From: Thiobacillus sp.
GTDB lineage: Bacteria > Pseudomonadota > Gammaproteobacteria > Burkholderiales > Thiobacillaceae
NCBI GenBank assembly: GCA_016124745.1
Contig: WGNC01000001.1
Coordinates: 1-64,000, forward strand
Direction of reading: 5' to 3'
Length of the DNA stretch: 64,000 bases
Every line of letters begins with the position of its first letter. Positions within the stretch are counted from its first letter, which is position 1. The translations under genes were made by a program, and so were the position numbers. The notes beneath the pieces are model-generated. The model had not been told where the DNA came from. It did no database searches and was given only the letters and a program-made list of their open reading frames with translations. Shown one piece after another: positions 30,386 through 52,625 of this stretch.

Positions 30386-30390
30386 CAGGC

Positions 30391-36909: not shown

Positions 36910-38217
36910 TCAGGAAAAAGCCGGGAAGAACAGGGCAAACACCGCGCTGGCCACACTGAGGCTGCCGAGCATGACGGGAAGCCCGGTCTTCAGCCATCGG
37001 CTCGGCGAGATGCGCGCTTGCGGCAGGCCGACTCGCTCGGCTTCGGCGATGCAGATGACGTTGGCGGTGGCGCCGATGTGGGTGCCGTTGCCGCCGAGTC
37101 CTACGCCCAGCGCCAGGGCCCACCACAGGGGGGTGGCGTTGACGCCTTGTTGTTCCAGCGCGGCGACGATGGGAATCATGGTCACGGTGAACGGAATGTT
37201 GTCGATCACGGCGCTGAGGATGGCGGCCACCCACATGAGCAGAATGGCGGTGGCCAGCAGGTGGCCGGGTTCGCCCGCATAACTGGCCAGCAGGCTACCG
37301 ATCAGGTCCAGCAGACCGGAAGCGTCCACGCCGCCGACCATTATGAACAGGGCGGCGAAGAACAGCAGCACTGTCCATTCCACTTTGTTCATCAGCATCT
37401 CCGGGTCGGGGCGCAGCCAGACCAGGGCCACGGCCAGGCCGATCAGGCTGACGAAAGCGGGATACCAGTGCAGCGTGTGGTGGACGAAGAACAGCAGCAC
37501 CACGCCCAGCATGACGGTGACGATGCGTTTCATGGCGGGCCGGTCATTGATGGCATTGTCCTCGTCGAGGTCCACCACGGCCGCCGTGTCCACCGGCCGC
37601 AGATCCCGTCGAAACAGCATCAGCATCAGCGTGATGGTGATCAGCCATACGGGCAGGATGATGGGGCCCATGTGCAGCAGGAAGCGAACGAAATCGATGC
37701 CACCGGCGCTGCCGATCATGATGTTGGGCGGATCGCCTACCAGGGTAGCGGCGCCGCCTATATTCGACATCATGGCCTCGGCGATGAGATAGGGCGCTGG
37801 ATTGAGGTTGAGGATGCGCGTCACCAGTACGGTGAGCGGGGCGAAGATGATCACCGTCGTGACATTGTCCAGAAACATGCTTAGCACGCTGACCGCGGCG
37901 CACAGGTAGACCAGCAACCGGCGCGGGTCGCCCGCCGCCAGTTTGGCGAGGCGGATGCCCAGGTATTCGAAAGCCCCCGTGGGGCGCAGCATGGCGACCA
38001 GCAGCATCATGGCCATGAGCAGGTGCATGGTGTTGCCGTCGACCGCCCCCAGGGCGGCTTCCTGGCTGTAGAAACCGGCCCACCCCCCTATCATCACCAT
38101 GGCCACAGCACCCAGCAGGGCTGCATAGGCCCGGTGTATCACCTCGGTGAAGATCAACGCGTAGGACACCAGCAGGATGCCCAGGGCCACGCCCATGTCG
38201 GAGGTAAACGATGTCAT
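36910..38217 (-). CDS. ArsB/NhaD-type ion transporter (probable Na+/H+ antiporter)
   Basis: A 435-residue membrane protein of the ion transporter superfamily with about eleven helices. SNIGGAATLVGDPPNIMIGS and the symmetric GLGGNGTHIGATANVICI are the paired signature loops; FLDNVTTVIIFAPL and VIDNIPFTVTMIPIV are the paired Asp-Asn helices of NhaD/P-protein members. Sodium/proton exchange is favoured by its position, two bases after the CBS gene at the end of the MBX-like operon, where it could recycle pumped sodium. An earlier in-frame start (38250) would overlap the CBS gene. Confidence 0.85.
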   Translation of the reverse strand: MTSFTSDMGVALGILLVSYALIFTEVIHRAYAALLGAVAMVMIGGWAGFYSQEAALGAVDGNTMHLLMAMMLLVAMLRPTGAFEYLGIRLAKLAAGDPRRLLVYLCAAVSVLSMFLDNVTTVIIFAPLTVLVTRILNLNPAPYLIAEAMMSNIGGAATLVGDPPNIMIGSAGGIDFVRFLLHMGPIILPVWLITITLMLMLFRRDLRPVDTAAVVDLDEDNAINDRPAMKRIVTVMLGVVLLFFVHHTLHWYPAFVSLIGLAVALVWLRPDPEMLMNKVEWTVLLFFAALFIMVGGVDASGLLDLIGSLLASYAGEPGHLLATAILLMWVAAILSAVIDNIPFTVTMIPIVAALEQQGVNATPLWWALALGVGLGGNGTHIGATANVICIAEAERVGLPQARISPSRWLKTGLPVMLGSLSVASAVFALFFPAFS

Positions 38218-38219
38218 GC

Positions 38220-38675
38220 CTAATTGCACCCCACATGAGTCAACAGGCATTGGGCCAGGCTCATGATGCTGACCACCCCGTGGTATTCGTCCCCATCGAG
38301 AATGAAGATGTAGGTCGTTTTCTCCATTTCCATCATGGCCAGGGCCTTGCTGACCGGCGCGCTGGAATTGATTTTCGGCAGATTGGGAAGAATGAGGTCG
38401 TCAATGGTCCGGTTGAGGACTTCCTGGCCATGGATTTCGGGCAGGCGCAGGTGCTCGATGCTGTCGCCCAGCATGTACGCGTACTTGGTCAGGTAGTCCG
38501 GCAAGCAAGTCATTTTGAGGATGTGCCGGATTGAGGCCTTACCGGTGATTCGACCGTCTGCATCTCGATAGGGAATGCCCGGCATCTGAACCCGGATGCA
38601 TTCCCGGAACAGATCGGAAACCAGCATGCCGGGCTCGGCAACGGCGGTGGGGGTGGCGAGTTCGCGCAGACTCAT
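38220..38675 (-). CDS. Tandem CBS-domain protein
   Basis: A 151-residue soluble protein with two CBS motifs (about 5-58, MLVSDLFRECIRVQMPGIPYRDADGRITGKAS, and about 90-148, ISMSAPVSKALAM-like INSSAPVSKALAMMEMEKTTYIFILDGDEYHGVVS). CBS pairs bind adenine nucleotides and gate transporters or enzymes. It lies between the rubrerythrin-like gene and the antiporter gene, which starts two bases later, so it may be a nucleotide-sensing regulator of the antiporter or complex. Confidence 0.87.
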   Translation of the reverse strand: MSLRELATPTAVAEPGMLVSDLFRECIRVQMPGIPYRDADGRITGKASIRHILKMTCLPDYLTKYAYMLGDSIEHLRLPEIHGQEVLNRTIDDLILPNLPKINSSAPVSKALAMMEMEKTTYIFILDGDEYHGVVSIMSLAQCLLTHVGCN

Positions 38676-38747
38676 TGGCTTGTCTCCGAAGCTATCAAAG
38701 CCGGCAGTGTAACGGGCCGGCTCACGCCGTTTCCAAAGCCTGCTGGC

Positions 38748-39257
38748 TCACACGCCACCGCTGTGCACCACTTCGTAATACAGCTGCTCCAGTTCGTTCT
38801 TGTGCTTGGTTTCCTCGTTGGCCAGGTAGACGAACAAATCATGGATCGGGCCGGGCTCCGTGCTGTCGGCCAGCGACTGGTACTGCTCCATGGCGGTGTG
38901 CTCGCGCCCCAGCGCATAGCGCAGCAGGGCCTGGTCGTCGGGATGCTCGCCGAGGTCGGGCAGCAGCACGGCATCGGAAAACTTGCGGTCGCTCGCCGGC
39001 GTCATCACCTCGGCAGTGACCTGCTCGGCAATGTCAGGCCGGGCGGCGAGCTCGGTAAACATCCGGTAGTGTCCGGCCTCTTCCTCGGCCAGTTCTTCAA
39101 CCAGCCAGCGCATCTTCTTGCTGACCTTGGGCACCAGGGACGCATAGAAATCCCGCGCCGTGGCCTCGAACGAAGTGGCCACTTCGAGGATCTCCTTCAG
39201 GGTTTTCTTGGAACGGATGCGCTCGTAGCCGTGCGCCGTGCCTTCATGCTGGCTCAT
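38748..39257 (-). CDS. Rubrerythrin-like ferritin-fold diiron protein
   Basis: A 169-residue four-helix protein: ILEVATSFEATARDFYASL, LVEELAEEEAGHYRMFTELA, YALGREHTAMEQYQSLAD and FVYLANEETKHKNELEQLYYEV carry the paired E and ExxH ligands of a diiron site. The C-terminal rubredoxin domain of classical rubrerythrin is absent. Peroxide or oxygen scavenging is likely. ATG 39257 overlaps the end of the fused oxidoreductase gene by 14 bases, tying it to the complex; it may protect the iron-sulfur clusters or accept electrons from them. Confidence 0.85.
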   Translation of the reverse strand: MSQHEGTAHGYERIRSKKTLKEILEVATSFEATARDFYASLVPKVSKKMRWLVEELAEEEAGHYRMFTELAARPDIAEQVTAEVMTPASDRKFSDAVLLPDLGEHPDDQALLRYALGREHTAMEQYQSLADSTEPGPIHDLFVYLANEETKHKNELEQLYYEVVHSGGV

Positions 39258-41097
39258 ATGCTTTGCCTGCTTCATTGACGGTTTCATTGAGATGGCGGTC
39301 GATGCTGGCGGCCACGCGGTGGCCGTCGGCGACGGCATGCACGACATCGGGGCCGTTGACGATGTCGCCGGCTGCCCACAGCCAAGGCAGCGAACTGCGC
39401 CCCTCGGCGTCGAGCTTGAGGCGGCCGCGCATCCATTCAAGCTGTTCGGTGAGTTCCGTTCCGAGGATGGCGTCGGCATCGCCCATCTGGCCGATGGCCT
39501 CGACCATCCACTCGCCGGCATGAACCTGCGTGTCCTGCAGATCGTAGGTCGGTGCGAAACGCCCCTGCTCGTCGAGCAGGGAAATCACCCGGGCGGTTTC
39601 CAGGCCGCTGACGCGGCCGTTTTCCAGCACCACCGATTGCGGCCCGCGTGCCGGCAGGATCTCGATGCCTTCTTCCAGAGACTCCTTGATCTCCTCCGGG
39701 TCGGCCGGGAAGTGGCCTTCCGGCTGCAGCGCCGTGAGGGTGATGCCGACCTGACCATGGCGGATCTTCTGCAGGCGGGCCAGCGAGCGGGCGATGTCCA
39801 TCGCCACGTTGCCGCCGCCGACGACCACGGCGCGGGCGGGCACCTCGATCGGCTTGCCGAGCACGATGTCGCGCAGCAGGTCGACCGCACGGTACACGCC
39901 GGGCTGATCGCTGCCCGGGATGCGGGTGGAACGGCCGAACTGCAGGCCGATCGCCATCAGGACCGCGTCGTATTCGTCGCGCAGGGCCGCCATGCCGATG
40001 TCGCGGCCGACACGGGTGTCGTAGCGGATCTGCACGCCGAGCTGGGTGATGATCTCGACATCGTGATCGAGGCTGGCGCCCGGCAGGCGATAGTCGGGGA
40101 TGCCGTAGCGCGTCATGCCGCCCGCCTTGGGCAGGGCTTCGAACACGGTGACCTGGTGCCCCGCGCGAGCCAGGTCGAAGGCGGCGGTCAGCCCTGCCGG
40201 GCCGGCGCCGACGATGGCGACGCGGCGGCCACTTTTGTCGCTGGGCATTCCCTCGCTGACGATGGCCTTGACTCGTTCCGGTGCCACGTTGTCCATGGCA
40301 TAGCGCTTGAGCCAGCGGATCGCGATCGGTTCGCCGCGATGGCCGACCGAACACGCGTCCTCGCAGCGATGGGTGCAGACGCGGCTGCAGGTATGGGCGA
40401 ATGGATTGGTGCGGTAGATCTGGCGCACCGCTTCTTCCAGGTCGTCCTGCCAGATCGCGCGAATGTATTCCGGCGCGTTCATGTGGGTAGGGCAGGCATC
40501 GTGGCACATGCCGCATTGCACGCAGCGCGAGGCCTCGATGATGGCCTGTTGCCGCGTGTAGCCGGACACCATTTCGGCGAAGCCGCCGATGCGCGTGGAC
40601 GGTTCGAGCTCGGCCATGGGCTGGCGCTGGTGGTCGACCAGGTCGTTGTCCGTTTCCTTGGACCAGCCTTTCGGGAAATGCTGCTTGTGGATGCCGTTGG
40701 GGTCGGGCAGCACGAAGTAGCTGTCGAGCTCGGGGTCGGTGCAGGTGTGCACGTATTCCTGCGACAGGCTGATCGAACCGGTGGGGCACAGGTCGACGCA
40801 CAGCGCGCACCAGCAGCAGCGGCCGTAGTCGATCGCGGGGCGCAGGTCGCGCACGCCTTTGACCGGATCGTTGGGCAAACCCGGCACCTGCACCATGGTG
40901 ATGGCGGCGTTGTCGCACACCTTCTGGCAGGTCGAGCAGCCGACGCACTTTTCCCAGTCGTTGAGATGAAAGCCGCGGTAGCGCTCCGATGCCTTGCGCG
41001 GCGCCAGCTTCTCGGTGACGGGTTTGCGGCCAAAGAAGGCGAGCGCGCGCAGCGGGTTGAGGATGCTGCCCTTGTCCTTGTAGTCGATGTCACTCAT
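39244..41097 (-). CDS. NuoI-like ferredoxin fused to GltD/NfnB-type FAD-NAD(P)H oxidoreductase (MBX N-like)
   Basis: A 617-residue soluble fusion. Residues 45-110 hold two [4Fe-4S] motifs (C51VGCSTCQKVC61 and C94-x2-C97-x2-C100-x3-C104P), as in NuoI/MbhN. A third CxxCxxCxxxCP lies at 192-202 and a GltD-type CSRVCTHRCEDAC near 238-250. FAD binding is at VAIVGAGPAGLTAAF, NAD(P)H at VVVGGGNVAMDIARSLARL, and FAD again at LWAAGDIVNGPD. It should pass electrons between pyridine nucleotide (or ferredoxin) and the NuoB-like cluster. Its ATG shares one base with the NuoD-like stop (TGATG). Confidence 0.92.
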   Translation of the reverse strand: MSDIDYKDKGSILNPLRALAFFGRKPVTEKLAPRKASERYRGFHLNDWEKCVGCSTCQKVCDNAAITMVQVPGLPNDPVKGVRDLRPAIDYGRCCWCALCVDLCPTGSISLSQEYVHTCTDPELDSYFVLPDPNGIHKQHFPKGWSKETDNDLVDHQRQPMAELEPSTRIGGFAEMVSGYTRQQAIIEASRCVQCGMCHDACPTHMNAPEYIRAIWQDDLEEAVRQIYRTNPFAHTCSRVCTHRCEDACSVGHRGEPIAIRWLKRYAMDNVAPERVKAIVSEGMPSDKSGRRVAIVGAGPAGLTAAFDLARAGHQVTVFEALPKAGGMTRYGIPDYRLPGASLDHDVEIITQLGVQIRYDTRVGRDIGMAALRDEYDAVLMAIGLQFGRSTRIPGSDQPGVYRAVDLLRDIVLGKPIEVPARAVVVGGGNVAMDIARSLARLQKIRHGQVGITLTALQPEGHFPADPEEIKESLEEGIEILPARGPQSVVLENGRVSGLETARVISLLDEQGRFAPTYDLQDTQVHAGEWMVEAIGQMGDADAILGTELTEQLEWMRGRLKLDAEGRSSLPWLWAAGDIVNGPDVVHAVADGHRVAASIDRHLNETVNEAGKAYEPA

Positions 41098-42239
41098 CAG
41101 CGGTCGACCTCCGGCGGGCAGGCGTCGAGCGAGAACATGATCTGCGCCACGTCTTCCAGGCGCGCGCCCTTGCACAGGGTTTCCAGCACCTGCACCGCGT
41201 GCATGGAGGAGGGACCGCGGATGTGGGTGCGGTAAGGCTTGGCGCCGCCGTTGGAAACCACGTACCAGGACAGTTCGCCCTTGGACGATTCCACCCGCGC
41301 GTAGTACTCGCCGGCCGGCACGTTCCAGGCCAGCGGGTTGGGGATCGGTGCGCGGATCGGTCCGGGCATGGCCGGCAGGCGTTCGAGCACCTGGCGCACG
41401 ATGCGGATGCTCTCCTTGAGTTCCGCACGCCGCACCAGCGTGCGCGCCCAGGCATCCCCGGCGTGTTCGATGGGAATGTCGAACTCGAGCTGGTCGTAGA
41501 CGAGATAGGGATCGTCGCGGCGCACGTCGAAGGCGAGACCGCAAGCACGCAGGTTGGGGCCGGTCACGCCGAGTTCCAGCGCCTGCTGCTGCGACAGCGT
41601 GCCGACATTCTTGGATCGGGTAACGAACACCTGGTTGGTGAAGAACAGGTTGTCGTAATCCGGCAGGCGCGATTCCAGATAGTCGAGCGTGCTGGCGACG
41701 CGCCCCAGAAAGCCTTCCGGCACATCCTTGCGGACGCCACCCGGGATGTTGTAGATATGGTAGACGCGGCCGCCGGTGAGTTCCTCGAACAGGTCGAGCA
41801 CCACGTCGCGGTCTGCCACGCCCCAGTACATCGGGTTGTACATGCCCGTGGTGGCGGCGTGGCCACCGAAGGTGAACAGGTGCGCGGCGATGCGAGAGAG
41901 TTCCATCTGCAGCACGCGCAGCCATTGCGCCCGCGCCGGCACGTCGAGGCCGCACAGGTTTTCCACCGCGGTGGAATAGGCAAGCTCCATCGGCGCCGGG
42001 TCCGGCACGCAGATGCGCGGCACCAGCGCGAGGTTCTGGATCCACAGGCGCTGCTCCATGAGCTTCTCGAAGCCGCGATGCAGATAACCGCCGTCGGCCT
42101 TGGCCTCGATCACGGTGTCGCCATGCAGCCGCACCTTGAGCGCATAGTTGCCTTCGATTCCGGGGTGGTTGGGACCGAAGTTCAACTCGTATTCGTGGCT
42201 GGGCGGCTGGTGCCGTGCCTGATAGTTTTCAGCTCTCAT
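41097..42239 (-). CDS. NuoD/MbxL-like 49-kDa subunit with half-retained NiFe motifs
   Basis: A 380-residue homologue of complex I NuoD and [NiFe]-hydrogenase large subunits. FGPNHPGIEGNYAL and DGGYLHRGFEKLMEQR are family landmarks. The N-terminal CxxC site reads RIC77VPD80 and the C-terminal site DAC374PPE377VDR: the first cysteine of each pair remains and the second is acidic. Complex I lost all four and hydrogenases keep all four, so this is an intermediate, probably metal-free site. It starts three bases after the NuoC-like stop. Confidence 0.93.
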   Translation of the reverse strand: MRAENYQARHQPPSHEYELNFGPNHPGIEGNYALKVRLHGDTVIEAKADGGYLHRGFEKLMEQRLWIQNLALVPRICVPDPAPMELAYSTAVENLCGLDVPARAQWLRVLQMELSRIAAHLFTFGGHAATTGMYNPMYWGVADRDVVLDLFEELTGGRVYHIYNIPGGVRKDVPEGFLGRVASTLDYLESRLPDYDNLFFTNQVFVTRSKNVGTLSQQQALELGVTGPNLRACGLAFDVRRDDPYLVYDQLEFDIPIEHAGDAWARTLVRRAELKESIRIVRQVLERLPAMPGPIRAPIPNPLAWNVPAGEYYARVESSKGELSWYVVSNGGAKPYRTHIRGPSSMHAVQVLETLCKGARLEDVAQIMFSLDACPPEVDR

Positions 42240-42242
42240 CGC

Positions 42243-42848
42243 TTAACACTCGTCCTTGGCCTTGCGGCTGAAGCGCTGCTCGTCCGGCCGGATGGCGATG
42301 CCGCCGCCCTGCGCCTCGATGTCCTTGAGCCAGTCGGGGTGGTAGTCCTGCCAGTCGAAGTGCTCGCCGACCCAGGCCTCGGAATCGAATTCCTTGCGCA
42401 TCGGTGGCGGACCGTCCCATTCGGTCAGGATGAATTTCTCCATCCACGGGCTGCCCTCGAAATAGACGCCGTACATCTCGAAGATGTCGCGTTCGAAGAA
42501 GCCGGCCGGCTTGTAGATGTCGTACACGGAGAGGTAGCGCCCCGGCGCGCGCGGAATGCGGATGTGGGCCGAGACCATGACCTTCATCTCGTACGACCAC
42601 ACGTGATAGACGAGTTCGAATTCGTTTTCCTTGATCCAGTCGACGCAGGAAATGGCGGACAGGTGGACGAAGGAGCCCTTGCCCTGCAGCAGCGTGAGCA
42701 GCGCGGGCAGCGCGTCGGACTCGACATCGAGGCGCTGGCGCCGGTCGAAGCGGTTGTTGTGGGTGACGCCGTCGACTTCCCTGAGCAGGTGGCACAGCCA
42801 CTGGCTGATGTCGGGACAGACAAGCTCGGTGCTGATCTCGTTGCTCAT
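42243..42848 (-). CDS. NuoC/MbxK-like 30-kDa subunit
   Basis: A 201-residue peripheral-arm subunit. The signature FFERDIFEMYGVYFEGSPWM corresponds to the ERDxxDMxGxxFxGHP motif of complex I subunit C, and ILTEWDGPPPMRKEF follows as usual. No cofactor is expected; it bridges the NuoB- and NuoD-like subunits. The gene overlaps the NuoB-like stop by four bases and is followed by the NuoD-like gene, as in MBX and MBH clusters. Confidence 0.92.
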   Translation of the reverse strand: MSNEISTELVCPDISQWLCHLLREVDGVTHNNRFDRRQRLDVESDALPALLTLLQGKGSFVHLSAISCVDWIKENEFELVYHVWSYEMKVMVSAHIRIPRAPGRYLSVYDIYKPAGFFERDIFEMYGVYFEGSPWMEKFILTEWDGPPPMRKEFDSEAWVGEHFDWQDYHPDWLKDIEAQGGGIAIRPDEQRFSRKAKDEC

Positions 42849-43573
42849 TCCATGCGCTCCAGCTTGCCGGCGTTGAGCGTCATGCGCAGCGGTTCCAGCG
42901 GGGCCTTGTGCAGCCCCAGCAGGCGCGTGTGCTCGCCTTCGGTTTCGGGGCCGATCACGCCGTAGCGCTTCGCCTCGCCGATCACGTCGGTCGGAGTCTG
43001 CCAGGTCTCGCCGAACAGGCGCTGCTGGTTGGCGAGGTAGTGGTCGTAGCGCTGGTAATAGTCCTTCCAGTTGTCGGACGTGCCGGCCGCGATATTGGCC
43101 TGCAGCTTGCGCAGGCCTTCGATGACGGCTTCCGGGCGCGGCATGCAGCCGGCGATGTAGACGTCCACCGGCAGGTAGTCGTTGAGCTTCTTGGCGGTGG
43201 CGTAGCTCTGCCAGTACATGCCGCCGTTGACGGTGCAGGAGCAGATGCCGATGACGTACTTGGGCGAGGCCATCTGCTCGTAGGTCAGGATCACGCGCTT
43301 CAGCGTCTTCACCGACACATAGCCGGTGACCAGCAGGATGTCCGCCTGGCGCGGCGTCACCATCGGCTGGATGCCGAGGCGTTCCATGTCGAAGCGCGAG
43401 GTCATGGCCGGCGGCAGTTCGATGGCGCCGCAGCCGGTGCAGTAGTGCAGCATGAACAGCGAGCGCGAGCGGCAGAAGTTCATGAATTCGTCGAACACGT
43501 TGGCCAGCGGATTGCCGCGCGCCGGGGCTTGCTGGGTTTCGTAACGAACGGGGATGTCTTTAAGTGTGCTCAT
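42845..43573 (-). CDS. NuoB/MbxJ-like iron-sulfur subunit
   Basis: A 242-residue small subunit carrying the proximal [4Fe-4S] cluster. Cysteines are spaced C45TGC48, then GIC111SC113TVNGG and GC143MPRPEA. The CxxC start resembles hydrogenase and MBH small subunits, not the adjacent CC of complex I NuoB. The C-terminus (160-242) is extended. It starts 13 bases after the NuoH-like stop, the order seen in archaeal MBX (M-J-K-L-N). Confidence 0.92.
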   Translation of the reverse strand: MSTLKDIPVRYETQQAPARGNPLANVFDEFMNFCRSRSLFMLHYCTGCGAIELPPAMTSRFDMERLGIQPMVTPRQADILLVTGYVSVKTLKRVILTYEQMASPKYVIGICSCTVNGGMYWQSYATAKKLNDYLPVDVYIAGCMPRPEAVIEGLRKLQANIAAGTSDNWKDYYQRYDHYLANQQRLFGETWQTPTDVIGEAKRYGVIGPETEGEHTRLLGLHKAPLEPLRMTLNAGKLERME

Positions 43574-43586
43574 GTCCGTCTCCTTT

Positions 43587-44486
43587 TCAGCGCATGACGA
43601 AGGCCAGCCCGATCAGCCCGATCATCACCGGCCATTTCCAGAACAGCCGCACCAGGTCCTCGGTGCGGTAGCGCGGGAACAGAAAGGCCAGGCTGACCGG
43701 GATGGCCAGCACGGCGAAGCACTTGACGATGAAGAAGAGCCAGTTCTCGCCGCCGCCGAGGAAGAGCGTCACGTACAGGGCCGATGCGGTATAGAGCTGG
43801 AAGCTCTGCATCACGAACAGCCCACCCATGAACTTCCCGCTCATCTCCACCATCGGTCCGGTGGCGATCTCGGCCGGCGCGATATAGATCTCGAAGGGCT
43901 GCTTGCCCAGCATGCCGTGCAGGGCGAACAGGCCGGCGATGGCCAAGAGCGGCATCTGCGCCGCGCCCCAGCCGGTGATGCCGGCAGCCTGCTGGATCTC
44001 GATGATCGACATGAGGTTGGTGGAACCGAAATGGAAGGCGACGCCGAACACGACGATGACGAAGGGCACGTCGTAGGCCAGCATCGCGGTCAGTGCGCGG
44101 CCGATGCCGATCGAACCGTTGGGATTGGCGCACTGGCCGACGCCGAGCGCCATGCCCAGCGACGGCACCATCATCAGGTAGACCAGCGTGATCAGGCCGC
44201 CCTTTGCGGCGATGCCGTTCATGCCCGGCATCGGCAGCAGCGTCTCCGCAGCGACATAGCCGCCCACCGCCATGACGATGCCGATGTCGTGGATCAGGCC
44301 GTGCGAGGTCTGGGTGCGCTTGCCGTAGAGCTTGACGATGTCGTAGAGCGGCTGGAAGAAGGGCGGGCCGACGCGGCGCTGCAGGCGCGCGCCGATGCGC
44401 CGCATCATGAGCACCATGCCGAGGCCGATGACGAAGGCCAGCAGCGGCATCAACAGCAGTTCGAGGAGCAGTTCGATCAGGCTCAT
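43587..44486 (-). CDS. NuoH/MbxM-like membrane subunit
   Basis: A 299-residue protein with about eight transmembrane helices, linking peripheral and membrane arms. RIGARLQRRVGPPFFQPLYDIVKLYGKR is the conserved cytoplasmic loop (NuoH RxGPxxxGxxGxxQPxADxxKL equivalent), and PFEIYIAPAEIATGPMVEMSGK corresponds to the acidic FDLxEAExELVxGxxxEY loop. GPP rather than GPN and loss of some quinone-loop residues fit the MBH/MBX branch. The start overlaps the preceding antiporter stop by four bases. Confidence 0.92.
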   Translation of the reverse strand: MSLIELLLELLLMPLLAFVIGLGMVLMMRRIGARLQRRVGPPFFQPLYDIVKLYGKRTQTSHGLIHDIGIVMAVGGYVAAETLLPMPGMNGIAAKGGLITLVYLMMVPSLGMALGVGQCANPNGSIGIGRALTAMLAYDVPFVIVVFGVAFHFGSTNLMSIIEIQQAAGITGWGAAQMPLLAIAGLFALHGMLGKQPFEIYIAPAEIATGPMVEMSGKFMGGLFVMQSFQLYTASALYVTLFLGGGENWLFFIVKCFAVLAIPVSLAFLFPRYRTEDLVRLFWKWPVMIGLIGLAFVMR

Positions 44487-46336
44487 AGCAGCACCCATGC
44501 AAGCAGCAGCGTCGTGCCCGCCAGCAGATAGAAGCCCGGGCTCACCGCCCGGTACCAGCCGCCTGCTGCCGTCGCCACGAGTCTGACGCCGGAAGAAATC
44601 GCGCTTTCGAGCCAGGCGAAGCTGCCCCGGTACCAGCCGCCGATCAGATGCATCAGGCCGGCGTAGAAATTGTCGCTGTAGTGGTAGCGCATCTCGGTGG
44701 TGAGGAAATGGCCGCCCGCGTAGTTGTCGAGCTGATTGATGCGCTGGGTCTTGCCGCCGAAACCGTAGAACAGTATCGCGCCGACACCGAAGCCGGCGAA
44801 CAGAACGCCCACCACCCACAGCATGTCGAGGCTGGCCTGCGGACTATCCACGCCACCGAGCGTGTAGGCGAGTACCGGCAGACCAAGCGCGCCCTGGGCC
44901 GCCGCCACCCAGCCCAGCACCAGGCCGGGCGCCGCGCCGGTGACGAAGGCGAGCGTGGCGCAGGCGAGCATGGGGATCAGCATCGACAGCGGCGCCTCGT
45001 CGATCTTCTCGTGCTCGACGCGCAGCTGGCCGAGGAACAGGTTGTGGATCAGCTTGTAGACCGAGAGGATGGTGCCCAGCGTGCCGATGACGCTGGCCAC
45101 GAACAGCAGTGGGCGTCCGTCCTGCAACAGCGCCGTGTACACCATCCACTTGGAGACGAAGCCGCTCATCGGCGGCAGACCGGCCAGGCTGATGATGCCC
45201 ATCAGCAGGGCCAGGAACGACAGCGGCATGCGCGCCACCAGGCCGCCGAGCCGGTTGAGGTCGGTGTGGCCGATGCGGTGCTGCACGGCGAACACCGCCA
45301 TCAGCAGCGTGGCCTGGGTGGCGGCATAGTTGATCATGTGCAGAAGCCCGCCCGCCGAACCGAGCGCGGTGCCCAGTGCCAGACCCAGCAGCATGTAGCC
45401 GCCCTGGCCGATGCCGTGCCAGGCCAGCAGGTAGCGCGCGTCGTTTTGCTTCAGTGCGGTGTAGGTGGGCAGGATGATGGTCAAGGCCGCTATCCAGGCG
45501 ATCAGGTCCTGCGCGCTGAGGAAGCTGAACGGGATCGCCAGCGCCTTGAGCTGCGCGATGCCGATCAGCTTGACCAGCACCACGGCCAGCGCGAACAGGC
45601 CCATGCGGCCGACGATGGCGCCGAGGAATACCGCGCCCGGCGCCGGCGTTTCGGAATAGGCCGGCGCCTGCCACAGGTGGAAGGGCAACAGGGCCAGCTT
45701 GGCGCCGAATGCGATCAGGAACAGCAGGATCAGCCCCCACAGCGGTGCGTTGCCCATGACAGCCAGGCTCGCCGCTGCCGCTGCAAAACCGAACGAGCCA
45801 CTGGCCTGGAACAGCACGACGAGCGCGGCAAGCAGGGCCATTGCCCCGACAATGGCGTAGACCAGATACTTCAGCGCCGCCTCGCGCGCCATCCCGCCGG
45901 CCAGCGCCATGAGCAGGAAGCCCGCCCACGACGTGGCTTCCCAGCCGACAAACAGCGTCAGCAAATCGCCGCTGCCGAGCAACAGCAGCATCGCCAGCAC
46001 GTTGGCAGCGAGGGCGCTGAGCAGCAGGCGCCGGCTGCCCGCATAGCGGCGCAGCCATTCGCCGGAGCCGTACCAGCTTGCGAACAGGGCAGATGCCACG
46101 GTGATGACGGCGAACAGCCAGGACAGTGCATCGAAGCGCCAGCCAAGGTTGAAGCCGAAACCGGAGAAGATGAAGCTGGCCGTTGTCGTCTCGCCCATCT
46201 GCGACAGGATCAGCAATTGCACGCCATACAGCACCGTCGCCAGGATGCCGGCGCCGCGCCAGCTGCCGGCGAGCAGCATCGCCAGCAGGTTGAAAGCGGC
46301 AACCAGGAACAGCAGGTCGAGCGGATTCAGACTCAT
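44483..46336 (-). CDS. NuoL/MrpA-type antiporter-like subunit (MbxH'-like)
   Basis: A 617-residue polytopic subunit with about 14-16 helices. LFVGWEATSWAGFLLMAL holds the channel Glu on TM5, and LLFLIAFGAKLALLPFHLWQAPAYSETP the broken-helix TM7 with Lys. The C-terminal 100 residues resemble the NuoL/MrpA tail (RYHYSDNFYAGLMHLIGGWYRG). It is the second antiporter module after the MrpD-like gene, matching H' of archaeal MBX. The start overlaps the upstream stop as ATGA. Confidence 0.92.
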   Translation of the reverse strand: MSLNPLDLLFLVAAFNLLAMLLAGSWRGAGILATVLYGVQLLILSQMGETTTASFIFSGFGFNLGWRFDALSWLFAVITVASALFASWYGSGEWLRRYAGSRRLLLSALAANVLAMLLLLGSGDLLTLFVGWEATSWAGFLLMALAGGMAREAALKYLVYAIVGAMALLAALVVLFQASGSFGFAAAAASLAVMGNAPLWGLILLFLIAFGAKLALLPFHLWQAPAYSETPAPGAVFLGAIVGRMGLFALAVVLVKLIGIAQLKALAIPFSFLSAQDLIAWIAALTIILPTYTALKQNDARYLLAWHGIGQGGYMLLGLALGTALGSAGGLLHMINYAATQATLLMAVFAVQHRIGHTDLNRLGGLVARMPLSFLALLMGIISLAGLPPMSGFVSKWMVYTALLQDGRPLLFVASVIGTLGTILSVYKLIHNLFLGQLRVEHEKIDEAPLSMLIPMLACATLAFVTGAAPGLVLGWVAAAQGALGLPVLAYTLGGVDSPQASLDMLWVVGVLFAGFGVGAILFYGFGGKTQRINQLDNYAGGHFLTTEMRYHYSDNFYAGLMHLIGGWYRGSFAWLESAISSGVRLVATAAGGWYRAVSPGFYLLAGTTLLLAWVLL

Positions 46337-47796
46337 GGTGCGACCCCCGGAATCGTGCTGCCGAGGGTCACGGCGCGGTAGGCTGCGACGTCCGATGCCT
46401 GATGGGCCATCCAGCCGAGGCCTTGGGCCAGCGCCGGCAACAAGGGCATGCTGGCGACAAGAATTGCACCGAGCAGGCTGGCCACAGCCAGATCGCCCAT
46501 GCGGTGCGGCGGCGCGCCGTGCGCCGTTTTGGCATACAACAGCCCTACCAGGCGGAACAGATAATGTGCCTCGACCACGGCCATCAGCAGCACACCAAAG
46601 ATCGCAGCCTGTGCAAGAACAGCATCCTGCTGGCCTAGCCCCAGCAGCAGCACAAGCTTGGCCCAGAAGCCGGGCAGCGGCGGCACGCCCAGCAGCGACA
46701 GCGCGAACAGCGTGAACAGCCCCGCGGCCAGCGGCGCCTTGCGTCCGGCGCCGGCGAGATTTTCGAGGCCGCCGCTCCAGCGTTCCGCCAGCAGGAACAG
46801 CGCAGGTTTCATCAGCAGATGATGCAGTGCGACGGCCAGCGCCGCGATGAGACCGAGTACGCCCGGGATTGACACGGCCATGAACAGCAGGCCGAGCTGG
46901 CCAATCGACGAGAAGGCCAGCATGCGCGGCAGGTCGCGCGCGCGCCAGGCTGCCAGTTCGCCGCTGACCAGGCCAATGAGGCCGAGAACCAGCAGCGACT
47001 GGCGTGCCTCCGGCAGGTCGAACACCAGCAGGATCAGACGCAGCACCACCAGGATCGCCAGCTTCGACACCACGCCCGCAAGCAGGGCTGAGACCCGCTT
47101 CGGTGCGGTAGCGTAGACCTCGGGCACCCAGGCGTTGACCGGGAACAGTTCCGCCTTTACCCCGAAGCCGATCAGCAGACACGCGAAGGCAGCGAGGCCG
47201 AGCGGGTTGGCGAGACGCTCGGGGGCGAACTCGGACAGTTGGGCGAGATTGAGGGTGCCGGTCTGCGCGTAGATCAGCGCCACGCCGACGAGGGCGAGCA
47301 CGGAGCCGAAGCCGCTGATCAGCAGGTAGCGCACGGTGGCGGCCCAGGCACGTGCGCTGCCGCTTGAAGCGACCAGCCCGAAGGAAGCAACTGCCAGCAA
47401 TTCATAAAAGACATAGAGGTTGAACAGGTCGCCGGAGAGCGCCATGCCGGTGCCGGACCCCACCAGTAGCAGCATCAGCGCGCTGATGCGATCGCCGCCC
47501 GCCTGCATCGCTTCGCGCGGCCACAGCAGCAGCGCGAAAGCCGGCACTGCGATGGCGAACAGCAGCGCCAGCGAGTCGGCATAGAACACGATGCCCAGCG
47601 GTGGCGCGAAACCACCGATATTGGCGCTGACCGGCTGGCCGTGGGTAAGCAGGGCGGTATCGACCAGCATGCCTGCACACAGGAGCAGAACCAGCGGGCC
47701 GAACCAGCGTGCCAAACTGCCCGACGCGAGGCCAGCCGGCCTCACCAGAAACGCGGCGAGCAAGGGCAGGACGACTGGCAGCGCGAGCGCGTTCAT
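46333..47796 (-). CDS. MrpD/NuoN-like antiporter subunit (MbxH-like)
   Basis: A 487-residue proton/sodium antiporter-type subunit with about 14 helices. DLFNLYVFYELLAVASFGLVA has the TM5 Glu; GFGVKAELFPVNAWVPEVYATAPKRVSALLAG is the TM7-TM8 signature with the essential lysine. HHLLMKPALFLLAERW supplies the TM12-equivalent Lys. In Mrp antiporters this is MnhD; here it is an ion-pumping module of a redox complex. Both ends overlap neighbouring genes by four bases. Confidence 0.92.
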   Translation of the reverse strand: MNALALPVVLPLLAAFLVRPAGLASGSLARWFGPLVLLLCAGMLVDTALLTHGQPVSANIGGFAPPLGIVFYADSLALLFAIAVPAFALLLWPREAMQAGGDRISALMLLLVGSGTGMALSGDLFNLYVFYELLAVASFGLVASSGSARAWAATVRYLLISGFGSVLALVGVALIYAQTGTLNLAQLSEFAPERLANPLGLAAFACLLIGFGVKAELFPVNAWVPEVYATAPKRVSALLAGVVSKLAILVVLRLILLVFDLPEARQSLLVLGLIGLVSGELAAWRARDLPRMLAFSSIGQLGLLFMAVSIPGVLGLIAALAVALHHLLMKPALFLLAERWSGGLENLAGAGRKAPLAAGLFTLFALSLLGVPPLPGFWAKLVLLLGLGQQDAVLAQAAIFGVLLMAVVEAHYLFRLVGLLYAKTAHGAPPHRMGDLAVASLLGAILVASMPLLPALAQGLGWMAHQASDVAAYRAVTLGSTIPGVAP

Positions 47797-48263
47797 GCGG
47801 ACTCCCTCGAAGTTGTCACCGGCACGGGGTAGGGTTGGCCACCCCCCGGCTTGTTTGCGCTTTCGGGCGGCGCGATGCCGGCCGCACCACAGATTTCCTG
47901 TTCGACGCGGGTCTTCAGTTCACGGATATCGAGCGTGCCGTAGGCTTCCTTGACGCGAATGAGCAGCGCCACGGCCAGCGCCTGCACCCCGACGCCGATG
48001 ACGATGGCGGTCAGCACCAGCGCCTGCGGCACCGGATCGACCATGGGCCGGGTCACGGTTGCGCCGGTCAGGATCGGTGCCACCGCATCCCAGCGATAGC
48101 CGGCCAACACCAGCAGCAGATTGGCGCCGGCTTCGGCGATGGCCAGCGCCAGCACCAGGCGAAGCAGGTGGCGCGATACCGCCATGCCGACCGCGCCGAT
48201 GGCGACGAGTCCGATGCCGCCGGAGATCAGGATGGTGATCAGATCGGGTGGGTTCATGGTCAT
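47793..48263 (-). CDS. mrpC: MrpC/NuoK-like subunit (MbxG-like)
   Basis: A 156-residue protein with three transmembrane helices equivalent to NuoK: LISGGIGLVAIGAVGMAVSRHLLRLVLALAIAEAGANLLLVLAG contains the conserved TM2 glutamate, and DPVPQALVLTAIVIGVGVQALAVALLIR is the classic MrpC helix. The soluble C-tail of about 45 residues (EAYGTLDIRELKTRVEQEI onward) is longer than usual. ATG 48263 overlaps the previous stop; ATG 48257 is possible. Confidence 0.92.
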   Translation of the reverse strand: MTMNPPDLITILISGGIGLVAIGAVGMAVSRHLLRLVLALAIAEAGANLLLVLAGYRWDAVAPILTGATVTRPMVDPVPQALVLTAIVIGVGVQALAVALLIRVKEAYGTLDIRELKTRVEQEICGAAGIAPPESANKPGGGQPYPVPVTTSRESA

Positions 48264-48946
48264 TCCGCCAGGTGCGCGAGGAGGCCGGACAATTCGGCGC
48301 CAACCTTGAGGCCGACCGCCAGATAGAGCAGCGGCAGGCTGCCGGCCGAAACGAGCTGGCCGAGCGTGCCCTTGTCCAGCACGGGTTGCAGAAAGGCACC
48401 GCCGCCCAACAAGGCGGCCAGGCCGATGCCGATGAACGATGCGCCGGCCAGGGCTTCGATCAGGACGATGCCGACGTGGCTGGGTTGCCTGGCTGGCCGC
48501 GCCAGGAAGGAGACGAAGAAGGCGGCCGCCAGCACCACGCCGCCCTGGAAGCCGCCGCCGGGGGTGAGGTGGCCGTGCAGCACGATATAGAAACCCACGC
48601 TGAGCAGCAGCGGAAACAGCAGGTCGGAACCGGCGCGCAACACCAGCCCGGCATCGTGGCGCGGTTTGGCTCTGAGCCGGCTTTCTGCATGGATCGACGG
48701 CGCGAGCACCAGCCCGGCGACGGTAGCGGCGGCGAACAGGATGGCCAGTTCGCCCAGGGTGTCGATGCCGCGATAGGCCAGCACCACCGAAGTCACGATG
48801 TTGGCGGAGCCGGTTTCGCCCGGTGCCTGCTCGAGGATGGCCTGGCCGACGACCATCGGCGTCATCCCCAGCGGCAGTTGCGCCGCCAGCCCGATGAGCA
48901 GTGCGGCCAGGCCGATGGCGAACAGAAGCGAAGCCAGCTTATGCAT
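48260..48946 (-). CDS. MrpB-like membrane subunit (MbhE/F-like)
   Basis: A 228-residue protein that seems to join an MbhE-type N-terminus (about 1-75, VTSVVLAYRGIDTLGELAILFAAATVAGLVLA) with the MnhB domain (about 85-228, SVGFYIVLHGHLTPGGGFQGGVVLAAAFF). TPGGGFQGG is the MnhB hallmark. ATG 48946 overlaps the preceding small subunit by eight bases; the longer frame upstream is its shadow. In canonical Mrp the first part belongs to the MrpA C-terminus. Confidence 0.9.
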   Translation of the reverse strand: MHKLASLLFAIGLAALLIGLAAQLPLGMTPMVVGQAILEQAPGETGSANIVTSVVLAYRGIDTLGELAILFAAATVAGLVLAPSIHAESRLRAKPRHDAGLVLRAGSDLLFPLLLSVGFYIVLHGHLTPGGGFQGGVVLAAAFFVSFLARPARQPSHVGIVLIEALAGASFIGIGLAALLGGGAFLQPVLDKGTLGQLVSAGSLPLLYLAVGLKVGAELSGLLAHLAE

Positions 48947-49205
48947 CGGGATACTCCCGCTTGCCCAGGTCGATGAGGCCAAGCCGCCGCAGCCCCAGGG
49001 CCAGCACCGCCCCGGAAAGCCCGGCGCCGACTGCGGCTTCGGTCAAGGCCACGTCGGGCGCGGCGAGCAGCGCAAACAGCAGCGACAGCAGCAGCGACAC
49101 CACCGACGCAGCGGCAATGGCCGCAACCAGATTGTCCAGATACAGCACCAGCACGGCCGCACCCAGCATCAACCCCACCAGTACGAGTGCAATCCAGGCC
49201 GTCAT
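48939..49205 (-). CDS. MbhD-like small membrane subunit (MrpA C-terminal homologue)
   Basis: An 88-residue protein with three helices of the DUF4040 type: VLYLDNLVAAIAAASVVSLLLSLLFALLAAPDVALTEAAVGAGLS. The pattern APDVALTEAAVGAG is the family signature, with a conserved Asp and Glu. In Mrp it is a segment of MrpA; in MBH/MBX it is a separate subunit D. Start and stop both overlap neighbours. Confidence 0.9.
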   Translation of the reverse strand: MTAWIALVLVGLMLGAAVLVLYLDNLVAAIAAASVVSLLLSLLFALLAAPDVALTEAAVGAGLSGAVLALGLRRLGLIDLGKREYPDA

Positions 49206-49507
49206 CGCGAAGCCTCCTTGCCCGGCGGTTGCCAGACCTTTACCCCGGCGCGGTAGAAGGCACGCGCCAAGGTCGAGGAACCCACCGGGCTGGTGAACAG
49301 GATGAAGCCTGCAATGGCCACAAGCTTGGGCCACCACGCAGGCTGCAGCAGTCCGATCCCGGCAAGGATGCAGAGCACGCCCAGGGTCGAAGCCTTGGTA
49401 CCGGCCTGGATGCGGTTGTAGACGTCGGGCATGCGCAGGATGCCGAGCGCAGCGAGCAGGCAGAGCAGCGCACCCGCGAGGAGAAACAGGTCGGCAACCA
49501 GTCTCAT
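49202..49507 (-). CDS. mrpG: MrpG/MnhG-like subunit (MbxC-like)
   Basis: A 101-residue protein with three helices: LFLLAGALLCLLAALGILRMPDVYNRIQAGTKASTLGVLCILAG. LRxPDxYxRxxAGTKAxTLG is the MnhG signature. The start is at ATG 49507, overlapping the MrpF stop as ATGA; the longer reading upstream is in the shadow of mrpF. Confidence 0.93.
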   Translation of the reverse strand: MRLVADLFLLAGALLCLLAALGILRMPDVYNRIQAGTKASTLGVLCILAGIGLLQPAWWPKLVAIAGFILFTSPVGSSTLARAFYRAGVKVWQPPGKEASR

Positions 49508-49779
49508 GTCCGTTCTCCTTCGATGGCGCGTGCCAGGGCCACCACGCCGACGAAAGCCAGTACGCCGTATACGAGCGCCACGTCGAGATAGAGCGCGCTG
49601 CCGAGCAGCCAGGCAAGCAGGATCAGCCCTGCCGTGGCGATGACGCCGAGCGTGTCGGCCGCGACCAGACGATCGGGTGCTGCCGGACCGAGAATCAGAC
49701 GAAAAAGGCCCAACATCAGTGCGCAACCGAGCAATAACAGTGCAAAACCTTCGAGCAGATTGATGTCGGGGAGGATCAT
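49504..49779 (-). CDS. mrpF: MrpF/MnhF-like subunit (MbxB-like)
   Basis: A 91-residue three-helix protein: LFRLILGPAAPDRLVAADTLGVIATAGLILLAWLLGSALYLDVALVYGVLAFVGVVALAR. RxxxGPxxxDRxxAxDxxG and the Asp in YLDVALVYG are the MrpF hallmarks. ATG overlaps the mrpE stop and TGA overlaps the mrpG start, both by four bases. Confidence 0.94.
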   Translation of the reverse strand: MILPDINLLEGFALLLLGCALMLGLFRLILGPAAPDRLVAADTLGVIATAGLILLAWLLGSALYLDVALVYGVLAFVGVVALARAIEGERT

Positions 49780-50300
49780 TTGAGGAAGCCCGAAATGCGT
49801 TGTTCGAAACCCGCGGCGATGGCACGCGTGGCGCTTTCCAGATCGCTGCCCGGCGTGCTGTCGATCCAGTGGATCAGCAGGCGATCGTCTTCGGCCTCAA
49901 CGGTCAGTGTCCCCGGCGTCAGCGTGATGCTGTTGGCAAGCAGCATGCGGCCGAGATCGGAGGTGAGCCCGGTGCGCACCTCCACCAGTTCGGGATGAAT
50001 GGGCAGCGTTGGCGAGACCACGCGCCGCGCGACATCGAAGTTGGACAGTGCCAGCTGGCCGAAGAAATAGCCCAGGTAACGCAGCAGATGCAATGGGGCC
50101 AGGGGCGTCATCCGCAGGCCGGAAAGCAGGGCCAGGCGCTGCCCGGCGGCAAACATCACGACCAGCGACACTGCAATTCCCAGCACCACCTCGTCGGTGG
50201 CCAGGGAGCCGGTCAGCAGTACCCAGGTCAGCAAGCTGGCACAGAACCCCAGTACATAGGCGCCGGGTGAGGCGGAGGCGGGAGCAGGAGTTGAAAGCAT
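49776..50300 (-). CDS. mrpE: MrpE/MnhE-like subunit (MbxA-like), first gene of the operon
   Basis: A 174-residue protein with an N-terminal hydrophobic pair (GFCASLLTWVLLTGSLATDEVVLGIAVSLVV) and a soluble half with LLANSITLTPGTLTVEAEDDRLLIHWID, the MnhE signature. It starts the operon: upstream is a 412-base region with a sigma-54-type promoter and a MITE-like element, and the next gene overlaps its stop by four bases. Confidence 0.94.
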   Translation of the reverse strand: MLSTPAPASASPGAYVLGFCASLLTWVLLTGSLATDEVVLGIAVSLVVMFAAGQRLALLSGLRMTPLAPLHLLRYLGYFFGQLALSNFDVARRVVSPTLPIHPELVEVRTGLTSDLGRMLLANSITLTPGTLTVEAEDDRLLIHWIDSTPGSDLESATRAIAAGFEQRISGFLK

Positions 50301-51214: not shown

Positions 51215-52303
51215 TCACATCCGATCCAGCGTGTCGTTGAGCGCCACGCCGAAGCCGATCGAGTTCTGGTGCCAGTTGTAGTCGATCATGCTCTCGCCAT
51301 AGCCCGAGAAGGCGGCAACATAGCCGCGCAGGGGACCGAGCAGCGGAGGGGTGGTCCAGGTGAGGCGGCCAGCGCCTTTGCCGGTGCTTACATTTCCGCG
51401 ACCCATGAGCGTGAAGCTGTGCTCGTGCCACTTGTAGACGGCAGTAATGTCGCCATGGCCCATGTAGTCGACGATGTCGGGGTTGTCGTCGCCGCCGTCA
51501 TCGGTGACGAACCAGGGGCGGACCAGGAGGGCGAAGTTGTCGCGTTCGATGCCGAACTCCGCGATCACGCGGTCCCACGATCTGGAAATGGGGTCGGTAC
51601 GGCCGTTGGACTGGTGGTTGTAGCCCAAATTAAACAAGGACCAGCGGAAGCTGCCCAAGCTGACATGCGGGTTGTAGCTGACCATAACCTCGGGCTGGTA
51701 GTTCGTCTCGCGGAAAGGGCGCGACAGGTCACTATTGTAGAGTTGCCACTGGCTTTGTTGGGTATAGGCGACCCAGACGCCGAGACGCCTGTCCTCTGTG
51801 GCCCAGACGCGGGCCTTGAAACTGATCTGGAATTCGGCCTCGGTGGAGTCCAGTCCCGCATCCGGATTGCTACTATTGTTGATGACATCGAACAGGGCGT
51901 CGAAAGGTGCTTCGTTGGGGTTGTCGGAGTAGTTCGCCACCAAGAGGTAGTTGGGGCGATAGACACTGATGGTGTAGCGTGAGGAGGCAGGGTCGAAGCC
52001 CCAGGCGTTCTCGATCATGGACACTGGAGGCGCCGCGCTCGCGGCGGATAGTGTCGGTGTGTCCGTTACCGTTGCGGCCATGGGGCGAGCGGCTGGCGCA
52101 TCGGAGGGCAGCGCGACCGGAACCGGTTCCCTGGCGTGGGCCGGTTCGGCGAGTCGGCCGCTGGCGCGGTCATAGCAGGCGAGCCGCTCCGTGTCGGCAA
52201 TAATGTTTGCGCACGCAGTGATGCCCTGCACGTCGGGTTGTGCCAGAGCCGGAGCGCTCCCGGCCAAGGCGAGCGCGAACAGGGCAAACAGGGAACGATT
52301 CAT
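51215..52303 (-). CDS. pldA: Outer-membrane phospholipase A
   Basis: A 362-residue OMPLA with signal peptide (MNRSLFALFALALAGSAPALA), an N-terminal linker and a 12-strand beta-barrel. The catalytic region is FNLGYNHQSNGRTDPISRSWDR, with His and Ser of the His-Ser-Asn triad, and GYGESMIDYNWHQN is the typical C-terminal pair of strands. It hydrolyses phospholipids misplaced in the outer leaflet. A run of nine C on the coding strand lies about 56-64 bases before the ATG. Confidence 0.95.
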   Translation of the reverse strand: MNRSLFALFALALAGSAPALAQPDVQGITACANIIADTERLACYDRASGRLAEPAHAREPVPVALPSDAPAARPMAATVTDTPTLSAASAAPPVSMIENAWGFDPASSRYTISVYRPNYLLVANYSDNPNEAPFDALFDVINNSSNPDAGLDSTEAEFQISFKARVWATEDRRLGVWVAYTQQSQWQLYNSDLSRPFRETNYQPEVMVSYNPHVSLGSFRWSLFNLGYNHQSNGRTDPISRSWDRVIAEFGIERDNFALLVRPWFVTDDGGDDNPDIVDYMGHGDITAVYKWHEHSFTLMGRGNVSTGKGAGRLTWTTPPLLGPLRGYVAAFSGYGESMIDYNWHQNSIGFGVALNDTLDRM

Positions 52304-52539
52304 GGAAATGTTACCGGGTTCAATCGATAAGGGCCGGAACGGGGCGAATCATGTGTCCGGGGGGGGGAATGGTGGTGGGGCGCAACACGACGTCAGATAC
52401 CCGAGAAAACAGGAAGCGGTGACAGTCTAGCATTTCGTAAAGAAGGAATGGCCGACTTGTCGCCGGTCAGGTCTTGGTTCGCAACAAGCACGATCCGGCC
52501 GCATCGTACGGCGTACAACCCTCGATGGACAGCGCGACC
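52304..52539. other. Intergenic region upstream of pldA
   Basis: With the terminator region it makes a 322-base gap between pldA and the lipoprotein gene. It holds the G9 run at 52359-52367 and presumably the pldA promoter; no sigma-70 boxes are convincing and no ORF is credible. Confidence 0.5.
52359..52367. repeat. G9 homopolymer (C9 on the pldA coding strand)
   Basis: Nine consecutive G bases lie about 56-64 bases upstream of the pldA ATG, where slippage would alter promoter spacing. Runs of this length are uncommon elsewhere in the window. Confidence 0.8.
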
Positions 52540-52573
52540 AAAAAAATGGGTGACCAAGCTGCGTCGGTCACCC
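52540..52573 (-). terminator. Rho-independent terminator of the YSC84-type gene
   Basis: On the minus strand GGGTGACC (52573-52566) and GGTCACCC (52555-52548) form a perfect 8-bp stem with a 10-base loop, followed by A and seven T. It lies about 50 bases past the lipoprotein stop. Confidence 0.9.
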
Positions 52574-52589
52574 GTCTTTGCCGCTTCAA

Positions 52590-52609
52590 CCGGCCAGCAT
52601 CCTGGCCGG
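52590..52609. repeat. Short perfect palindrome
   Basis: CCGGCCAG-CATC-CTGGCCGG forms an 8-bp stem with a 4-base loop just after the lipoprotein stop and just before the terminator. It may stabilise the transcript end. Confidence 0.6.
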
Positions 52610-52625
52610 CCGGACAGCGTCCTGC

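Follow-up and report, generated by a model that had tools for sequence, protein, structure and literature searches.

Which respiratory machine would a bacterium with sulfur-oxidation genes build from thirteen membrane and redox genes that seem to stand in the order of an archaeal sulfur-reducing system, and to what use could it be put? We address this question for a DNA stretch of 64,000 nucleotides from a Thiobacillus sp. (assembly GCA_016124745.1, contig WGNC01000001.1, positions 1 to 64,000, forward strand; "the window" in the following). To our knowledge, the enzymes by which sulfur oxidizers reduce stored sulfur under anoxia or obtain reduced nicotinamide adenine dinucleotide (NADH) from sulfide are poorly assigned, and an MBS-type complex that is complete and brings an NAD module of its own, as appears to be encoded here, would be a concrete candidate for sulfur/NADH exchange in these organisms. 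Domain and profile searches of the window located 13 intact, contiguous minus-strand genes (50300 to 39244) in the order that a sequence-only reading of the region had given: MrpE-F-G, MbhD-like, MrpB, MrpC, MrpD, a second NuoL-like gene, NuoH, NuoB, NuoC, NuoD and NuoI-like. We refer to this operon as mbx and name its products after the MBS complex of Pyrococcus furiosus, which comprises MbsA-E, G, H, H', J-N and in which MbsE joins MbhE and MbhF (excerpts of PMC8415708).

By its sequence, the operon encodes an MBS/MBX-type respiratory complex, a rare relative of complex I that is known from archaea respiring sulfur, in agreement with the earlier proposal. In a comparison of the subunit sequences against all sequences of the PDB, chains of the MBS structure 6u8y gave the top match for five subunits (H, H', M, J and L), and among solved structures of the complex-I type none scored higher than 6u8y for any of the six subunits tested, N being represented by its NuoI part. 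A tree of 51 L rows places the window and P. furiosus MBS (6u8y_L) in a 33-row MBX clade with a support of 100/100, separate from the clades of Nuo (100/97), Fpo (100/100, two rows) and group 4 hydrogenases (100/100); the canonical NuoD of the host itself groups with Nuo. The same grouping was obtained in an earlier quick tree of 54 rows; the duplicates L133, L138, L139, L143, L147-L150 and L154 and the truncated L134 had been removed before that version, and the long-branch rows L136, L145 and L152 before the 51-row version. In the J tree (51 sequences; the nine L-tree duplicates and frames below 110 amino acids removed, the long rows L145 and L152 retained), the window shares a clade with 6u8y_J (99/89). 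The sequence-only reading had named a position inside the clades of canonical complex I or group 4 hydrogenases as the result that would speak against it, and neither L nor J takes such a position.

The residues reported to distinguish MBS (C25, C28, C93 and C123 of J, C85 and C385 of L; excerpts of PMC7684303) correspond to C45, C48, C113 and C143 in the J subunit and to C77 and C374 in the L subunit of the window, and all six cysteines are kept in the window and in 12 of 12 core relatives. C48, C113 and C143 occupy ligand positions of the proximal cluster, C45 a non-ligand position. Where Nqo4 has the quinone residues H38 and Y87, the window and MBS both carry E and V. Along the ion path through M, H and H', nine of 15 named MBS residues are identical, two are conservatively replaced and four are changed, with H keeping three of its five and H' four of its five. 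Other assignments were rejected: canonical complex I for the lack of NuoEFG in the operon and of a tandem CC in J, the loss of H38 and Y87, and trees outside Nuo; a group 4 [NiFe] hydrogenase (Mbh, Ech) for an L subunit with one cysteine per motif (RICVPD, DACPPE) and not four NiFe-coordinating ones; Fpo for the position of L outside the Fpo clade with its two rows; and a plain Mrp antiporter for the redox subunits present in the operon.

The last gene of the operon encodes the electron-entry subunit N, in which a NuoI-like double [4Fe-4S] domain (residues ~1-125) is followed by a stretch with a Fer4_20 double cluster, a flavin adenine dinucleotide (FAD) domain and a nicotinamide domain (~160-605). 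Its best overall PDB matches are chains of the NfnL/GltD type (~157-605), 6u8y_N matches residues 6-123 with 85 bits, and the top Foldseek match is NfnL (5jca_L); the AlphaFold model has a mean pLDDT of 75.8 and a low-confidence N-terminal part. The NCBIfam model PRK13984 matches over residues 10-606, below its cut-off of 946 bits. The NAD(P)H module by which the complex had earlier been supposed to be extended is thus real and takes the form of a fusion on N, and the ion-pumping arm is present as well. The NADP-phosphate motif of NfnB, YRR, reads ALQ in the window and ALE in most relatives from the same class. Because loss of YRR has been tied to NAD(H) use in DsrL-1 (excerpts of PMC7596348), the fusion is predicted, by analogy with this enzyme, to use NADH. 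Five more distant fusion sequences, L039 and L040 from the class and L056, L058 and L059 from elsewhere, have kept YRR and should use NADPH, and the family seems to be split into NADH and NADPH types.

The fusion recurs in other genomes together with its operon. In a class sample of 369 genomes, counted by a fusion protein at E <= 1e-100, it is present in 17, our own genome included. Thirteen of the 16 other loci show the same gene order; MbhD and MrpG are swapped in L039, and L037 and L040 end at contig ends. As the order recurs across loci of other genomes, the arrangement is not a product of chance. Downstream of the fusion gene, 15 of these 16 loci carry a ferritin-like gene, and L040 shows none within the 1.4 kb that follow. 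In L038 (6421-9309), L039 (6455-9469) and L040 (962-3799), a single reading frame of 945-1004 amino acids holds the matches to both H and H'. A scan of named genomes, of which the best 80 matches were listed, added at least 15 relatives matching over most of the length (L045-L059). Those listed include Pseudomonadota (Sedimenticola, Candidatus Thiodiazotropha, a Ctena symbiont and others) as well as Spirochaetes, Bacteroidetes, Fermentibacteraceae, Thermotogales, Sulfurovum, Cloacimonadota and Aminicenantes. Fourteen of these 15 reach upstream of the fusion gene, and in each of them this gene is preceded by operon genes up to the end of the available sequence; eight of the 14 show every operon gene from MrpE on. 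A ferritin-like gene was found in the six Pseudomonadota relatives and, weakly, in the Thermotogales relative, and in no others of those listed. We also looked for a conserved neighbor of mbx: of 10 flanking proteins from eight loci, eight proteins had matches and two had none, and they share no family. In L026, genes for glucose-6-phosphate and 6-phosphogluconate dehydrogenase come after mbx.

Mrp-like genes make up more than half of the operon, which could point to a stand-alone Mrp Na+/H+ antiporter accompanied by decayed redox genes, or to a misassembled locus. However, the redox genes are all open and keep their cluster cysteines, the same order is found in many genomes, and the same contig carries canonical nuo genes and, to either side of the locus, genes conserved in the genus, so that we give such an origin next to no probability.

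In the class sample, mbx is linked to the Dsr sulfur pathway. A dsrA gene (E <= 1e-50) occurs in all 17 mbx genomes, versus 118 of the 369 class genomes (hypergeometric p 1.7e-9), and none of 14 control genomes was positive in this search. Over the curated cut-off, the numbers are 16 of 17 and 112 of 369, the dsrA of G264 being a fragment. At family level, all 16 mbx families contain dsrA, versus 60 dsr families among an assumed 175, the highest code seen (p 8e-9). RuBisCO was found in 176 of the 369 class genomes and in 14 of the 17 mbx genomes, three showing none; among dsr genomes it is not enriched with mbx (14/17 with, 87/101 without; Fisher p 0.71). The earlier idea that the complex makes reductant for autotrophy therefore lacks specific support, since RuBisCO does not rise above the dsr background. 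Our own genome holds dsrA, B, E, F, C, K and O over their cut-offs in one run, with M- and P-like genes below, and a DsrL-like flavoprotein in this run was named from its position and family. The genome also encodes SoxB, RuBisCO and, separately from mbx, a canonical nuo cluster. The same genome contains a full [NiFe] hydrogenase large subunit (G000:C16:144415-146013, 777 bits) and a 436-amino-acid open frame with weaker matches to such a subunit at both ends (G000:C25:122512-123651).

We think it probable that the complex acts as a near-reversible, ion-pumping NADH:sulfane-sulfur oxidoreductase of the MBS/MBX type with an NfnL-fused entry subunit, for which we infer NADH specificity, a sulfur substrate, ion pumping and its direction. 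Electrons from NADH would enter at the FAD of the fusion's C-terminal half and move on to the two [4Fe-4S] clusters of this half; the cluster pair of the NuoI-like half would then relay them to J, at its proximal [4Fe-4S] cluster. The one iron of this J cluster without a cysteine ligand would then split the S-S bonds of sulfane sulfur (polysulfide, persulfide), in the chamber that holds the quinone in complex I, and the NuoH-like anchor would transmit the energy to the Mrp Na+/H+ module and the two antiporter-like pumps. By standard potentials, NADH lies ~50 mV below sulfur/sulfide. Because this step is small, the complex should operate near equilibrium, in a direction set by the sulfide level and the ion gradient. 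At low sulfide and with plentiful stored sulfur, the cells would conserve energy from NADH-driven sulfur reduction and thus burn a reserve under anoxia; at high sulfide and with a strong ion gradient, the complex could run in reverse and produce NADH. The forward direction is attractive because anoxic respiration of stored sulfur has been described in Beggiatoaceae (excerpts of PMC4959497).

Alternatively, the same complex might run mainly in reverse, with sulfide or persulfide being oxidized to sulfane sulfur and NAD+ reduction being driven by the ion gradient, which would bypass the quinone pool and spend fewer ions than a reversed complex I. Under standard conditions, the above potentials favor the forward direction instead; a canonical complex I also exists in our own genome, and RuBisCO is not enriched relative to dsr genomes that lack mbx, three mbx genomes showing none. 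The presence of dsrA in every mbx host of the class sample, RuBisCO in 14 of 17, and the assignment of the related NAD-linked flavoprotein DsrL to NAD+ reduction in sulfur oxidation (excerpts of PMC7596348) are in line with a mainly reversed complex, and we regard it as a possibility of lesser weight. On a wider scale, we propose tentatively, and with some doubt, that in Gammaproteobacteria (in the wide sense, including betaproteobacteria) the NADH-linked MBS with its NfnL-type module and ferritin-like partner forms a mobile add-on to the Dsr pathway, which would give sulfur oxidizers a direct, reversible and ion-coupled link between the NADH pool and sulfane sulfur inside the cell. If true, the quinone pool would be bypassed, stored sulfur could be breathed in anoxia, and NADH from sulfide would be cheaper than via reversed complex I.

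Several points weigh against an NADH-linked, sulfur-directed MBS complex. Flavins of the NfnL type bifurcate electrons in Nfn, and ferredoxin may still be a partner. The complex could then be a gradient-driven NADH (or NADPH):ferredoxin oxidoreductase, or could couple sulfur and ferredoxin reduction by bifurcation: the C-terminal half of the fusion is closest to NfnL/Xfn, which handle ferredoxin, its N-terminal half is ferredoxin-like, and the Mbx of P. furiosus has been cited, in an older view, as a ferredoxin:NADP+ oxidoreductase (excerpts of PMC6349859). The operon includes no NfnS-like gene, however, the NADP motif is lost, and the pocket of J and L retains the MBS signature, so that NAD(P)H:ferredoxin exchange, one of the two chemistries offered by the sequence-only reading, is less supported as the preferred one and appears unlikely to us. 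NCBIfam scores J and L over the cut-offs of its NuoB and NuoD models, and K matches the 30-kDa subunit family, as might suit a quinone-reducing variant of complex I; the four features that set canonical complex I aside speak against such a variant too, and we consider it very improbable.

The oxidoreductase reading as such is also burdened by changes at M E104, M E193, H E219 and H H330 in its ion path, and by the distant loci L038-L040, which lose J C25 in 3/3 cases, L C385 in 3/3 and L C85 in 2/3 and largely keep the gene order. Catalysis in P. furiosus does not require J C25 or L C85/C385 (excerpts of PMC7684303); their conservation is therefore a family marker and no proof of sulfur chemistry. 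The Dsr link is an association, tested within the class sample and not fully corrected for kinship, and the 17 mbx genomes were counted by the fused form alone, so that an unfused mbx would not register.

Within the genus, mbx was probably gained recently by this genome, in a variable slot. The fusion protein is absent from all 24 other same-genus genomes searched, many of which are incomplete drafts. In the sisters G403, G407, G408 and G416, an aminoacyl-tRNA synthetase gene lies ~1.4-2.9 kb from the arfB-like block, whereas in the window ~24 kb (26475-50712) separate the synthetase gene (25272-26474) from the start of the block at 50713; it is this spacing, together with the absence of the fusion from the 24 genomes, that argues for a recent gain. 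The spacer genes of G408 and G416 seem alike, and those of G403 and G407 differ. G416 has no arfB-like gene, G394 gave no synthetase match within 30 kb beyond the block, and the contig of G397 ends there. Besides mbx, the slot contains, at 26651-33937, a deacetylase-family gene, a fusion of ADP-forming CoA-ligase and GNAT acetyltransferase, a histidine phosphatase and a glycogen phosphorylase. When seven slot genes were compared with 31 mbx loci, the sole match was the glycogen phosphorylase, in L034. Direct repeats of >=14 bases were found within neither end of the slot, each end being searched by itself. All 15 same-genus genomes searched for dsrA carry it, G395 and G400 as fragments below the cut-off, and the closed genome G403 (C1) has three copies, at 1388079, 1449796 and 2559720.

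The coordinates of the operon genes and of the ferritin-like gene that follows them are collected in Table 1. Near-universal overlaps of 1-4 bases had been described for the operon; nine of its 12 junctions do overlap in this manner (4 bases in eight, 1 base in one), but one overlap measures 8 bases and two junctions are gaps of 13 and 3 bases. The ferritin-like gene overlaps the fusion gene by 14 bases. The fifth gene, previously called MrpB, has an MnhB domain, well above its cut-off, but also an MbhE domain, as in Pyrococcus MbsE, which scores slightly below its cut-off of 27 bits. Likewise, the range first proposed for the operon, 36910-50300, encloses all of it but also spans the ferritin-like gene and two further genes directly downstream on the same strand, a CBS-domain gene (38220-38675) and a CitMHS/ArsB-type transporter gene (36910-38250). 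As neither of these two has a match in the class loci or in the wider set of 31 mbx loci, we set them outside the operon. A search for sigma-70-type promoters found none, with 2.1 expected by chance.

Table 1. Genes of the mbx operon and the adjoining ferritin-like gene in the window, with lengths in amino acids (aa) and the matches that support each name
Product	Position	Strand	Evidence
MbsA/MrpE-like, 174 aa, first gene of the operon	49776..50300	-	PF01899 135 bits; NCBIfam MrpE models below cut-offs
MbsB/MrpF-like, 91 aa	49504..49779	-	PF04066
MbsC/MrpG-like, 101 aa	49202..49507	-	PF03334
MbsD/MbhD-like, 88 aa	48939..49205	-	PF13244 MbhD 61.6 bits
MbsE-like, MbhE + MbhF(MnhB) domains, 228 aa	48260..48946	-	PF04039 78 bits; PF20501 (MbhE) 26.4 bits
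MbsG/MrpC/NuoK-like, 156 aa	47793..48263	-	PF00420
MbsH, antiporter-like ion pump (MrpD/NuoN-like), 487 aa	46333..47796	-	NCBIfam PRK08377 top but below cut-off; 6u8y_H 204 bits
MbsH', second antiporter-like ion pump, 617 aa	44483..46336	-	PRK08668 369 bits (cut-off 617); 6u8y_X 173 bits
MbsM/NuoH-like membrane anchor, 299 aa	43587..44486	-	6u8y_M 179 bits, then 6cfw_M 61 bits
MbsJ/NuoB-like, 242 aa	42845..43573	-	6u8y_J 219 bits vs 122 for the next; residues; tree
MbsK/NuoC-like, 201 aa	42243..42848	-	PF00329
MbsL/NuoD-like chamber subunit, 380 aa	41097..42239	-	6u8y_L 390 bits vs Thermus Nqo4 286 and Mbh 130; tree; residues
MbsN-NfnL fusion (NuoI-GltD), 617 aa	39244..41097	-	PRK13984 795 bits; 6u8y_N; NfnL/GltD chains; Foldseek
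Ferritin/rubrerythrin-like di-iron protein, 169 aa	38748..39257	-	PF02915 45 bits; two ExxH motifs

Two further features of the window may be mentioned. A 769-amino-acid open frame at 34231-36540 matches the C-terminal part of DUF2126 (putative amidoligase) alone and is possibly a shortened copy. At 51215-53210, genes for a phospholipase A1-like and a Ysc84-domain protein separate the arfB-like gene from the racemase gene. The matches of these latter two genes are ~20 bases apart in G403, G407, G408, G394 and G397, which suggests a second small insertion; relatives of the phospholipase with 45-48% identity occur elsewhere in eight of nine sisters.

The window complex has a counterpart for each of the 13 subunits of P. 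furiosus MBS, again with MbhE and MbhF in one E subunit and with the two antiporters H and H', and it shares the signature residues of J and L. It differs in its N subunit, which counts 617 amino acids with its FAD/NAD module compared with 208 in MBS, in an added ferritin-like gene and in some changed ion-path residues. The N subunit of P. furiosus MBS is short, of the ferredoxin type, and takes electrons from ferredoxin, a trait that we do not regard as defining for MBS/MBX; that of the window is fused to an NfnL-like NAD module, which marks the complex as a variant. The hosts differ too: P. furiosus is a sulfur-reducing fermenter, whereas the window host has sulfur-oxidation genes. The MBX of Thermotoga maritima, whose mbxA is up 4.36-fold with sulfur, is likewise bacterial but is assigned to ferredoxin, and the excerpts of PMC9431562 mention neither an NAD-linked fusion nor a ferritin partner. 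A putative Mrp-Mbx has been named in the sulfur-oxidizing symbiont Endoriftia (excerpts of PMC11636981), and a six-gene Hyf/Mbx-like cluster of Candidatus Symbiobacter and Comamonadaceae looks, in the excerpts of PMC4053972, like a different thing. In the excerpts returned by an open-licence literature search, we found no description of an NAD-linked fusion, a ferritin partner or a dsr link in MBX.

The C-terminal 450 residues of the fusion, with two extra [4Fe-4S] motifs and sites for FAD and nicotinamide, resemble NfnL/NfnB, GltD and DsrL, and the loss of YRR is shared with DsrL-1; unlike these proteins, the window version carries a NuoI-like domain in the same chain and belongs to an MBX operon. 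The NCBIfam model PRK13984, a "putative oxidoreductase", combines NuoI and GltD over nearly the full length of the fusion and is a model without function. Bacterial MBX complexes have thus already been published, in Thermotoga and Endoriftia, and the main difference of the complex described here is its fusion with an NAD module, which shows how complex-I-like machines may swap their electron-input modules.

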